Virus record (IMG/VR): IMGVR_UViG_3300024256_000066
Coordinates: 1 to 20,876 of that record
From: a virus
DNA length: 20,876 bases
Reading direction: 5' to 3' (one strand)
The translations under genes were made by a program, and so were the position numbers. The notes under the pieces were generated by a model that had not been told where the DNA came from, did no database searches, and saw only the letters and a list, made by a program, of their open reading frames with translations. Position 1 is the first letter of the stretch. Every line of letters starts with the position of its first letter. This document shows, in pieces, positions 15,907-19,933 of the stretch.

Positions 15907-16446
15907 ATGTTAGACACTAAAGCAATCAATAGGAAAATCGGTGGTATTAAAAAATCTACAACTACAATCCGTGCGAATGTGCAGGAAGTATTGTGCAACG
16001 TAGCAGGTCATGCCTACGAGTTCGGCGATGTAACAGGGTTCGACAAACTGTTAGCTGTATCAACGGGTCTTAGTAAGAGCCGTATCATTCGCTGGGTGCA
16101 TGAATATGGGTTCGCTCGTTATAACGAACAAACAGGCACGTTTAAAACCAACAAAAAGATGTTGAAAGAAACTATGTTTGGCAACGGTTCGTATACTGAC
16201 GGCTCAGGTACTGAAGTGGTTAAGTACTTAGTAGACGAGTCTGTCAATTGGTATGACATGACAGCAGGTGAAGCTTCAACTGACAAACCTCTTGACATCA
16301 CTCAGAGTTTAGTTGCACTTCGTAAGCGTATCGACAAAGCTACTGAGAAAGGTCAAGAGATTGTATCAGATGACTTTCATGTAGCAATGCGACTACTTGA
16401 AGACAAGATTGAGAGTCTGACTGAAGTTGAGATTAAAGTAGCTTAA
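15907..16446 (+). CDS. Conserved phage protein of unknown function, 179 aa
   Basis: The protein is soluble and mostly helical. It opens with MLDTKAINRKIGGIKKSTTT and a helix (IRANVQEVLCNVAGHAYEFG). A conserved patch, SKSRIIRWVHEYGFARYNEQ followed by TGTFKTNKK, lies near residues 56-82, followed by VVKYLVDESVNWYDM (about 104-118) and a C-terminal helical region. The LSKSRIIRWVHEYGFARY motif recurs in uncharacterised proteins of aquatic phages; I know no function. The GGAG site at 6-nt spacing is good. It is the first gene of the rightward block, preceded by palindromic leader elements and closed by two hairpins, so it forms its own short transcription unit. A regulatory or early role is possible on position alone. 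Confidence 0.78.
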   Translation: MLDTKAINRKIGGIKKSTTTIRANVQEVLCNVAGHAYEFGDVTGFDKLLAVSTGLSKSRIIRWVHEYGFARYNEQTGTFKTNKKMLKETMFGNGSYTDGSGTEVVKYLVDESVNWYDMTAGEASTDKPLDITQSLVALRKRIDKATEKGQEIVSDDFHVAMRLLEDKIESLTEVEIKVA

Positions 16447-16459
16447 TCCAAAGAATAAC

Positions 16460-16485
16460 TAAGTGGGCGAGAGGTTGCCCACTTA
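16460..16485. terminator. First of two hairpins after the 179-aa gene
   Basis: TAAGTGGGC (16460-16468) pairs perfectly with GCCCACTTA (16477-16485) around an 8-nt loop, 14 nt past the stop codon. It lacks a U-tract in plus orientation. On the minus strand it is followed by GTTATTCTTT. It may act in the leftward direction or protect the mRNA end. Confidence 0.5.
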
Positions 16486-16523
16486 AAACCATAGCGTATT
16501 CAATCGAGTATGCTATGGTTTTA
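16485..16523. terminator. Bidirectional rho-independent terminator
   Basis: AAAACCATAGC (16485-16495) pairs with GCTATGGTTTT (16512-16522). The interior continues with pairs up to a 4-nt loop (17 pairs including two G-T). The arms themselves supply A-runs and U-runs, so both directions end in TTTT. It ends the 15907-16446 unit and would also stop any leftward transcript coming through the GTCTTA repeat region. Confidence 0.75.
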
Positions 16524-16537
16524 TCCAATAAACCTAT

Positions 16538-16810
16538 TAAGACGCTCTTTTGCGTGTCTTATTGCGTGTCTTAATACAAAACGCTTTCGTAGCGGGGAAA
16601 AATAAGCCTATTAAGACAATAAGACAATAAGACATAATATAATAGAGAGAAGAAGTTTTAAAAAGTTAGAGAATAAAAAGTTCTAAAAGACAACCACCAT
16701 AGACTACTCCCGAGGGAACTTTCCGTCTCTCTCAGAAACCGTGTCTTATTGTCTTATTCGAGGAATATCAAGGACTTACGCGTGTCTTATTGTCTTAATA
16801 CAATGTCTTA
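16538..16810. repeat. Iteron-like array: eleven GTCTTA copies, both orientations
   Basis: GTCTTA lies at 16556, 16568, 16743, 16751, 16784, 16792 and 16805, and its complement TAAGAC at 16538, 16612, 16620 and 16628. Most copies extend to GTGTCTTATTG or GTCTTAATACAA. Spacing is 8 bp within the pairs or triplets at 16612, 16743 and 16784, 12 bp for 16556/16568 and 13 bp for 16792/16805. GCGTGTCTTATTG occurs identically at 16552 and 16780. The inner part (16610-16690) is strongly AT-rich. No gene is present from 16447 to 16934. Clustered short repeats with an AT-rich core are typical of iteron origins or of arrays for a cooperative repressor. The binding protein is unknown. Confidence 0.75.
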
Positions 16811-16853
16811 TTACAATCTTTGGATTAATACACTTTTTGCTGATACGCTCTCA

Positions 16854-16880
16854 TTAACATGACAGGTACTGTCATGTTAA
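16854..16880. promoter_or_regulatory. 27-bp perfect palindrome, probable operator
   Basis: TTAACATGACAG (16854-16865) and CTGTCATGTTAA (16869-16880) are exact inverted repeats around a 3-nt centre, 12 bp per arm. The plus side is followed only by a weak CTGTTTT, so a protein-binding operator is more likely than a terminator. It sits between the GTCTTA array and the gene at 16935 and covers the -10 of the minus-strand promoter. A half-site ACAGGT is also present in the palindrome at 15245-15260. Confidence 0.65.
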
Positions 16881-16902
16881 CCTCTGTTTTCCACCTTGTC
16901 AA
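16874..16902 (-). promoter_or_regulatory. Candidate minus-strand promoter reading into the repeat array
   Basis: The minus strand has a perfect TTGACA (16902-16897), a 17-nt spacer and TAACAT (16879-16874; 4 of 6). No minus-strand gene lies downstream before the bidirectional terminator at 16485-16523, so transcription would give an untranslated RNA of about 350-400 nt across the repeats. Boxes are seen; the transcript is inferred. Confidence 0.5.
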
Positions 16903-16934
16903 CCCCTTTTCCATAATAAATAGGAGTAATCCAA

Positions 16935-17135: not shown

Positions 17136-17463
17136 CAACAACCAAATGCGTGAGTTCACGACTCATCAGCGAACGTTCGAAACCAACAACGGTCATGCGT
17201 TTGCCAACAGAGATAACCGCAACCAAATGTATGTGGTGTATTCGTACGGGGAACACTTCCCGATGTATGCCTACGACAGCGACACGGAGCATTGGTTTGG
17301 TAACTCATCAAAATACTCGCCCACTACATCAAAGCACCAAAAAGCATCACGACCCGATACATCAAATGACCACCCTATCGCTTGGTTACCAACAGATGAG
17401 TTGGTATCCCTTGTAGCACTTGGCGGTTACGCACCATACTGTGCTGAGCGGTGTGCGAGTTAA
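17122..17463 (+). CDS. Small conserved phage protein of unknown function, 113 aa
   Basis: The sequence includes [47 protein letters not shown] and [17 protein letters not shown]. This order (a YSYGxHFPMY strand pair, then a SxKYSxTTSKHQ motif and a C-terminal W.xTDxL helix) recurs in uncharacterised proteins of many phages. Aromatic and histidine content suggests a compact beta-rich fold. The ATG has a GGAG site inside the upstream gene, so both are co-translated. No catalytic motif can be named. It likely belongs to the early or middle gene set, judging by position only. Confidence 0.7.
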
Positions 17464-17591: not shown

Positions 17592-18608
17592 ATGCCATCA
17601 ATTAACCAAGTAGTAGACGTAGCGACATCAATCCTACGTAAATCACCATCAGCTGTACCGTTCTTTAAGGGAAAACCTGGAATGGGTAAGTCTGACGCTT
17701 GTCTGCAAGTGGGACACAACTTAGACATCAGAGACGAGCGTGTCCTAGTGGTACACGTTAACAACCACGACGTAGTGGACTTCACAGGTGTGCCATCAGT
17801 AACTGATGATGGTGTAACGATATTCAACCCGACCGAGATGTTCTACAACTTCAGAGAGGGAACGGGAGCGGGACTGATTGTCTTGGAAGAACTACCACAA
17901 TCAAGTACGCACCACCAAACGTGGGCTGCGGGGTTTATTCTAGAACGAAAGACACCCACGTTCAAATTAGACAAAGACGTGCGGTTCATCGTAACGGGTA
18001 ACAGAGTAGAGGACAAAGCGGGAGCGAAACAGATGCTAACCCACCTATCGAACCGTATGTATGAGTTCGAGATGGAAACATCGTTAGACGATTGGTGTGG
18101 TTGGGCGATGGAGCATAACGTTGACCCCCTAGGTATCGCGTTCATGAGGCTAAGACCGCAACTGTTGAACGACTTTGACCCTATGCGTTCGGTCAATCCA
18201 ACACAAAGAGCGTGGACTCAACTATTCACCGAAGTACCGAGAGAGTTACCAACAGACTTATATATGTATGCTTGTGAGGGTAAGGTTGGAGAAGGTGCGG
18301 CGGCGGAGTGGGTAGCGGCGAGGTCGCTAATGAGTAAGATGCCGAGTGTTGACGTAATCAGACTACACCCCGACAAAACAGAAGTACCCGATGAACCCGC
18401 AGTTAAGTACGCCGTAGCGACAGCACTCAGCATGACCGCTGAACCCGTGTCGTTCGGTAGAGATATGTTGTACATCGCTCGTATGCCTAAGGAGTTTCAG
18501 ATGGTGTACGTAACCGATGCCCTACGACTACACCCCGAGTTACAGCAGACGAAAGACTTTATTACTTGGGCTGTAGCTAACAAAGACATATTCATGGGAG
18601 GTGAGTAA
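17592..18608 (+). CDS. MoxR-type AAA+ ATPase, 338 aa
   Basis: Walker A is GKPGMGKS at residues 27-34. Walker B is GLIVLEEL at 94-101, with E99 in place of the usual Asp and catalytic E100 kept. Sensor 1 is RFIVTGN with N137, and LSNRMYEFE at 152-160 supplies the NR of the MoxR arginine region. The VDFTGVPSV segment near 62-70 and THHQTWAAGFILERK near 106-120 match the substrate-pore and helix-2-insert area of MoxR proteins. These hexameric ATPases act as chaperones together with a VWA-domain partner, as in RavA-ViaA, NorQ-NorD and CbbQ-CbbO. A candidate partner lies at 20332. A strong GGAGG ribosome site precedes the ATG. Function in the phage is unknown. Confidence 0.88.
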   Translation: MPSINQVVDVATSILRKSPSAVPFFKGKPGMGKSDACLQVGHNLDIRDERVLVVHVNNHDVVDFTGVPSVTDDGVTIFNPTEMFYNFREGTGAGLIVLEELPQSSTHHQTWAAGFILERKTPTFKLDKDVRFIVTGNRVEDKAGAKQMLTHLSNRMYEFEMETSLDDWCGWAMEHNVDPLGIAFMRLRPQLLNDFDPMRSVNPTQRAWTQLFTEVPRELPTDLYMYACEGKVGEGAAAEWVAARSLMSKMPSVDVIRLHPDKTEVPDEPAVKYAVATALSMTAEPVSFGRDMLYIARMPKEFQMVYVTDALRLHPELQQTKDFITWAVANKDIFMGGE

Positions 18609-18710: not shown

Positions 18711-19703
18711 ATGAACATGAATGACATATTGGCACAAGCCATAAACGAAGCCGTCGACCACGACTCATCGCCCACCATCGTTGAGCAAGTTGCCGTCGTT
18801 GATGAACCCCAGATACAAGTACCGCCGACGCGACCATCAGTAAGCGTTAAAGGCTTAGATGAGAAAGCAGTCCTAATCAGCGTGAAACGTCGCATGTACT
18901 CACCGTACAAACTAGACCAAGAGGAAAGTAAGAAGTACGGTGCGGGTAATGTGAATAAGCACCTATTTGAGGGGCGTAACAACAAAGTCAAGGAAACCAT
19001 CAGCAAATTCTCAGAGGTATATGTGTACGTGAAAGAGAACACAGTACCTTGGAGTACAGGTGTAGATATGTTGAACATAGACCACTACATGGAATTTACT
19101 CAAGGACTTAGACAGTTAGTTGACCAAGCGAACCAAGCAGTATGGGAGCTGTATAGCAAGTGGGACGACGAAGTTACCGCAGACCTAGACAGACTAGCAC
19201 AAATTGCAATAGCGAAAGGTAAGCCGAACTTAGCGAACCCTAGCGACTATCCATCAGCGGACGAGATGAGAACCAAGTTCAGCATCGACGTAAGATACAT
19301 GCCAGTTCCAACTACTGGTGACTTTAGAGTAGGCATCAGCGACGAGGACAAAGAGTCACTACAACAGCAGTTAGATGATGCGGGTAGTAACGCAACCAAG
19401 CATGTACTTGAGTCAATGATAACGCCAATGCGTAGGGCAATCGAGAAGTTAGCAGTACCGATAGGAAACGACGGTAGTGTGTTCCGCGATACCCTAATCG
19501 ACAACATGGTAGATGTAGCCGAGCGTATGAATAAGGTGAACATATCAGATGACCCAGCAATCCAAGCAAAGATTGATGACCTACGTAGCCTAGTTGGAAC
19601 GTACGCCAATAACAAAGACATGCTTAGAGATAGTCAGACTGTGCGTGAGAAAGCAGTTAGTCAGATAGACAGCCTAGTAAGTCAGATGGCTAACCTAGTA
19701 TGA
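18711..19703 (+). CDS. DUF3150-like protein, putative partner of the MoxR ATPase, 330 aa
   Basis: After an acidic, disordered first 40 residues the protein has VLISVKRRMYSPYKLDQEES (54-73), VYVKENTVPWSTG (104-116), then a long helical region and IGNDGSVFRDTLIDNMVDVA near 251-270. The C-terminus is helical with a repeated VSQxxxL(V) pattern. This arrangement resembles DUF3150-type proteins that are encoded between MoxR and VWA/DUF2201 genes in phages and plasmids. The assignment is from memory of the family. It has no enzyme motif and probably acts as a substrate or adaptor within the complex. It has a perfect AGGAGG site with 6-nt spacing and overlaps the next gene by 4 nt. Confidence 0.65.
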   Translation: MNMNDILAQAINEAVDHDSSPTIVEQVAVVDEPQIQVPPTRPSVSVKGLDEKAVLISVKRRMYSPYKLDQEESKKYGAGNVNKHLFEGRNNKVKETISKFSEVYVYVKENTVPWSTGVDMLNIDHYMEFTQGLRQLVDQANQAVWELYSKWDDEVTADLDRLAQIAIAKGKPNLANPSDYPSADEMRTKFSIDVRYMPVPTTGDFRVGISDEDKESLQQQLDDAGSNATKHVLESMITPMRRAIEKLAVPIGNDGSVFRDTLIDNMVDVAERMNKVNISDDPAIQAKIDDLRSLVGTYANNKDMLRDSQTVREKAVSQIDSLVSQMANLV

Positions 19704-19933
19704 GTATCCCAGAGAAGTTAGTGTGTGAACTGTGCGGGAGTTCCAACACATCTCGCGATGGGTATGCTAGATGGGATACCGACACACAAAAGTGGGAGGT
19801 CACCGATATGTCAGACTATACGTGGTGTAGTGCTTGTGACAATGAGATAACCGGTGAATGGTTACCGCTAGAACTTAAAGACATGGCGAAATTAGCAATC
19901 AAAAAGGAGAATGAAGATGGGATACCGAAGTGA
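19700..19933 (+). CDS. Small zinc-ribbon protein, 77 aa
   Basis: Two CxxC pairs, CELC at residues 9-12 and CSAC at 43-46, frame a beta-rich loop containing YARWDTDTQKWEVTDM. This is the common layout of tiny phage zinc-ribbon proteins whose function is unknown. The ATG overlaps the upstream TGA (ATGA). The C-terminus is a short charged helix. The end of the gene overlaps the start of the next by 17 nt. It could be a nucleic-acid-binding or protein-bridging accessory of the operon. Confidence 0.7.
   Translation: MSIPEKLVCELCGSSNTSRDGYARWDTDTQKWEVTDMSDYTWCSACDNEITGEWLPLELKDMAKLAIKKENEDGIPK

Follow-up and report, generated by a model that had tools for sequence, protein, structure and literature searches.

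Judging by its sequence features, the repeat cluster in a gene-free gap of the DNA analyzed here is, very probably, where a family of bacterial viruses starts DNA replication. The window, i.e., the whole stretch under analysis, is a virus record of 20,876 bp, which represents a fragment of a virus. The array is likely to constitute the phage's replication origin, with arms to which the phage's own primase-DUF927 helicase would bind through its C-terminal winged-helix domain. An earlier sequence-only reading had left the choice between an iteron origin and a cooperative repressor array. The former is now well supported by the conserved geometry, the IHF consensus at a fixed spacing, the AT-rich spacer between inverted arms, and the co-variation of the repeat with the protein's C-terminus, while the repressor array has become less likely. 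For most uncultured phages, origins are unknown, and an origin type that is recognizable by its geometry alone, whatever its letters, also points to the initiator.

Organization of the Repeat Array and Its Flanks

The features of the gap and of its immediate surroundings are as follows:

15907 to 16446, plus strand: phrog_1448-family gene, upstream of the array
16459 to 16523: two hairpins (16459-16486 and 16484-16523), probable terminator after the upstream gene
16538 to 16573: left outer iterons, GTCTTA at 16538 (minus), 16556 (plus), and 16568 (plus), with counterparts in relatives
16612 to 16633, minus strand: left core arm, three GTCTTA copies in exact 8-bp steps (16612, 16620, 16628)
16634 to 16700: AT-rich spacer (76% AT), which would melt as the presumed duplex-unwinding element
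16743 to 16756, plus strand: right core arm, two GTCTTA copies with an 8-bp step (16743, 16751), inverted relative to the left arm
16766 to 16778, plus strand: IHF-consensus site TATCAAGGACTTA, 23 bp from the start of the right pair
16784 to 16810, plus strand: right outer iterons, copies at 16784, 16792, and 16805
16854 to 16880: 27-bp palindrome TTAACATGACAG-GTA-CTGTCATGTTAA, with perfect 12-bp arms, before the next gene
17592 to 18608, plus strand: MoxR-type ATPase gene, the anchor for finding relatives

The description of the array given by the sequence-only reading is confirmed. The 11 copies of GTCTTA or its complement that it had counted within 273 bp are found exactly, at 16538-16810, where about 0.19 would be expected, in line with its estimate of well under one; in the window as a whole, the hexamer occurs 26 times, against a shuffle mean of 14.7. 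The 8-bp phasing in pairs and triplets is exact, the strand positions bear out the two orientations, and the longer duplicate reported at 16552 and 16780 is an exact 13-mer, GCGTGTCTTATTG. The interval 16610-16690, called AT-rich, contains 79% AT (vs. 56% in the window), the array has no open reading frame of at least 60 amino acids, as expected of a gap described as gene-free, and both the flanking hairpins and the palindrome were located. The two core arms are 100% complementary to each other (pair I5). Clustered and conserved non-coding repeats, an adjacent AT-rich region, and an IHF-consensus site, by which iteron origins are recognized, occur together. An IHF site is common, but not obligatory, at iteron-type origins.

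The left part of the window carries structural genes (terminase, portal, capsid), and rightward genes, including those of the MoxR ATPase and a metallopeptidase, lie beyond the gap. The palindrome is either an operator or a terminator near the downstream gene; at its position, a palindrome-like sequence of another kind is present in other relatives (e.g., CTGTTTACATGTATACAC). The octamer CGACTCAT, present in the window at 17159 and 18761, occurs 7-13 times per genome in G006, G010, G015, G017, and G021 (about one or fewer expected), frequently in the form ACGACTCATAGG within gaps near the array, and may serve the phage as a promoter or regulator site. A search for a T7-type RNA polymerase, carried out with regard to this octamer, gave no match, and its positive control likewise gave none.

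Just upstream of the array, phages that hardly differ elsewhere carry a gene of one or the other of two unrelated families of about 165-180 amino acids (window 15907-16446 vs. L006:1382-1882). In L006, the MoxR protein is 98% identical and the same array is present, but the upstream gene is of the other family, with a profile-comparison probability of 0.3%. The phrog_1448 protein was, therefore, rejected as the array binder.

Conservation and Geometry across Relatives

Relatives were gathered by scanning IMG/VR with the MoxR protein, which yielded 45 loci; no nucleotide-level relatives of the window were found among phage records. Conservation of the repeats in relatives, which the sequence-only reading had put forward as a check, was found in about 35 distinct IMG/VR relatives, with variation in the letters of the hexamer; this outcome speaks for a function of the array. 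In nearly all of the MoxR loci covering the gap, the array is present and its order is kept: one or more outer copies come first, then the minus-strand triplet and, beyond an AT-rich stretch, the plus-strand pair, both in 8-bp steps, and finally further copies. The distance between the starts of the triplet and the pair is 107-133 bp (36 arrays, near-copies excluded) and falls into three classes (107, 117-121, and 127-133). As this spacing shows no clean 10.5-bp period, the idea that the two arms keep a strict helical phase was rejected.

A detector based on geometry only, which requires a single hexamer to form 8-bp pairs on each of the two strands inside 330 bp, points to one place in most genomes and gave no match in 2.65 Mb of first-order random sequence. 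It missed G021, G023, G029, and L042, which have degenerate copies and whose arrays were read by eye. The cultured relative Pseudomonas phage Rollin has eight of its nine TTGCATA copies inside positions 260-680 of its record; they include inverted copies and a triplet spaced at 9 bp, and an AT-rich run is present as well. No array was clearly seen in G055 or in Rhizobium phage RHph_TM3_14A. L168 encodes a 2,546-residue protein (L168:9017-16657) whose C-terminal third gives a DarB-like antirestriction match.

These comparisons bear on the possibility of an operator or enhancer array, in which a phage repressor or activator would bind GTCTTA cooperatively and control the early genes to the right. 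The array does lie upstream of rightward genes and is followed by a palindrome, and sigma-70-like hexamers overlap it. Nevertheless, this explanation is unlikely: the arms face each other in inverted orientation across an AT-rich spacer, an IHF-consensus site keeps a fixed distance, the downstream genes and the distance to the MoxR gene (about 0.4-2.8 kb) vary while the array stays constant, and hth64, a small conserved HTH protein, does not track the hexamer in the labelling test described below.

The IHF-Consensus Site

The IHF consensus applied here, WATCAANNNNTTR, was taken from the literature. Most arrays carry it at +22/+23 from the start of the right pair, in either orientation; 18 of 38 arrays contain a perfect match, where shuffled sequences would lead one to expect 1.5. 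In RHph_TM3_14A, both perfect IHF-consensus sites of the genome are located in one gene-free gap (L429:7439-7772, i.e., 19439-19772), upstream of a MoxR-type ATPase gene; this gap is a likely location of an origin, without an obvious array.

Repeats and IHF sites are also combined at other phage loci. In lambda, cosB pairs repeats with an IHF site, and the terminase genes are close to the array here (the small terminase gene starts about 1.3 kb from it), as would suit a cos or pac packaging site to which the small terminase binds. This is, however, very unlikely, given that the complete relative G023 assembles into a 60,628-bp circle that closes within other genes, that long contigs continue through the array, and that the hexamer tracks the C-terminus of the primase-helicase. 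Likewise, attP sites use repeats plus IHF, and some relatives possess a tyrosine integrase, for which the copies could serve as arm sites; but the integrase is optional and encoded beside the primase-helicase gene, far from the array, and G021 has the array with no integrase in 44 kb (an incomplete contig), which makes an attP hardly credible. The integrase gene adjoins that of the primase-helicase at G023:60430-60849, G032:21765-22217, and G033:17849-18310, and part of the lineage is probably temperate, since some members have this enzyme. Repeat arrays are found at centromeres too, but a partition centromere bound by a segregation protein is extremely improbable: no ParA-type ATPase (PF13614) was detected in the nine records searched, while the control search matched in all 14 genomes.

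The Primase-Helicase and Its Co-Variation with the Hexamer

A protein of about 980 residues, combining a primase-like N-terminus with a DUF927 helicase, is encoded in all adequately covered relatives. The DUF927 profile PF06048 matches it with an E-value of 3e-23, and PHROG primase/helicase matches span both of its halves. As the window fragment does not include its own primase-helicase, the relative G006 (94% MoxR identity) was used as a stand-in. The gene lies about 14-17 kb from the array (G006, G021, G042).

The last 150 residues or so of this protein diverge specifically where the hexamer has changed. Co-variation was scored on seven GTCTTA and four GTCTAA genomes for which both parts are available, using all 330 possible 7/4 splits. 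Over residues 831-980, the true GTCTTA/GTCTAA split ranks best of the 330, with 8 of 137 columns separating the groups. These include H841, K931, Y933, I934, and F950, which are invariant in the GTCTTA group and provide the clearest differences (K931/R, Y933/V or T, I934/L, F950/I or L, H841/Q). For most other proteins, a different split, usually the phylogenetic one, fits better, and hth64 does not follow the hexamer. The DNA polymerase is the exception, the true split being first there too (15 of 635 columns, next best 13), and recombination of the replication block could, given this rank, contribute to the co-variation. In a tree of residues 1-830, the GTCTTA genome G037 lies inside the GTCTAA clade (support 100/99); in the weakly supported C-terminal tree it lies outside, and it carries a GTCTTA-type wing. 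Only two hexamer switches are represented by complete pairs.

Structure prediction points to a C-terminal winged-helix DNA-binding domain in the primase-helicase. Models of residues 720-980 and 823-980, both of moderate confidence (pLDDT 65 and 67), place two helices ahead of a beta wing. Residues 931-935 and 947-951 are on the predicted wing strands, so that the switching residues 931-934 and 950 are placed on two strands. The best structural match of the C-terminal model is SaPIBov1 Rep (8tch, Foldseek E-value 1.4e-5). The long model aligns with Rep at a VIA Z of 8.4 (205 aligned residues, rmsd 8.4), and the short one with Rep residues 449-565 at a Z of 6.8, although a Z below 8 may by itself reflect a common fold; for the short model, the oriT-binding accessory protein of the pCW3 relaxosome (5vfx/5vfy) ties with Rep. 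The helicase core matches SCCmec Cch (5dgk, E-value 7.6e-11). In SaPI Rep, the C-terminal domain recognizes the iterons, and that of Cch2 binds direct repeats of the origin (PMC7581432). The likeness to SaPI Rep is supported by this published C-terminal iteron recognition and by the independent match of the helicase core to Cch.

Hexamer Switching

In relatives, the geometry is kept, including that of the left core arm, with arrays built from GTCTAA, GTCTCA, GTCATA, GTAATA, GAACAA, or GGATAT. The following arrays were assigned:

GTCATA: L034/L035/L040, L400, L405
GTAATA: L037
GTCTAA: G028/G029/G033, G032, G035, G042
GTCTCA, degenerate: G023
GAACAA: L396

The distant phages G056 (GTCTAATT) and G060 (TTGGATAT), of about 60 kb, keep the layout with polymerases that are only about 50% identical. 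The polymerase of G039 is 95% identical to that of a GTCATA phage, and its primase-helicase has a distinct wing, RMYIGQG, on a contig without the array. Pairing of the GTCATA and GTAATA phages with their primase-helicases was abandoned, the contigs being too short.

A tentative interpretation, somewhat less probable than not, is that the origin is re-coded again and again in this phage lineage: while the geometry stays frozen, the hexamer would switch together with a few residues in the wing of the initiator, giving one family many incompatible origin types. Satellites or origin-directed nucleases are perhaps the driver. If true, such a lineage yields a readable protein-DNA recognition code. 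The natural hexamer switches and the matching wing changes make this code, as well as the evolution of origin incompatibility, directly testable, Rollin included.

Proposed Initiation Mechanism

Initiation may proceed as follows. The initiator, a self-loading primase-helicase acting at a distance of about 14-17 kb from its own gene, would bind the mirrored arms through its C-terminal domains, while IHF would bend the DNA beside the right arm. The AT-rich spacer would then melt, and two helicase rings would load in opposite directions, prime, and unwind for the family-A polymerase of the phage, resulting in a bidirectional start. Whole-genome GC skew, which the sequence-only reading had proposed as a check, could be compared only in relatives, the window being a fragment; there it turns near the array in G021 and several kb away elsewhere; as it follows gene direction, it is a weak proof of an origin. 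A limited literature search found no experimental test of origin function.

Comparison with Known Systems

The layout is best read as working like a SaPI or P4 replicon located far from its initiator gene. The SaPI replicon (SaPIBov1 Rep) likewise has a DUF927-related AAA+ helicase; as an initiator it recognizes short iterons with its C-terminal domain, as is proposed for the phages. Unlike in SaPI, the helicase is fused here to a primase-like N-terminus, an IHF-consensus site is built in, and the carrier is a phage of about 60 kb rather than a satellite. As the SaPI origin is directly downstream of the initiator gene, and the present one about 14-17 kb away, the array is not classed as a SaPI replicon.

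The P4 alpha replicon also has an iteron-based origin with C-terminal recognition. P4 alpha unites primase and initiating helicase in one protein (PMC7145576), a fusion to which the primase-like and helicase parts of the phages' protein correspond, whereas the DUF927-type core, the repeats, and the 8-bp inverted arms with their IHF-consensus site differ from P4 as described. SCCmec Cch/Cch2 resembles the present helicase core, but it has separate primase proteins, belongs to a Gram-positive cassette, and has its putative origin beside the gene. Finally, in the RepA of PLE satellites, the DNA-binding domain of the initiator changes in step with the repeats of the origin and is exchanged as a module (PMC8263062); the co-variation of domain and repeat is comparable here, although RepA is an unrelated protein of the RepA_N family, with iterons of about 30 bp.
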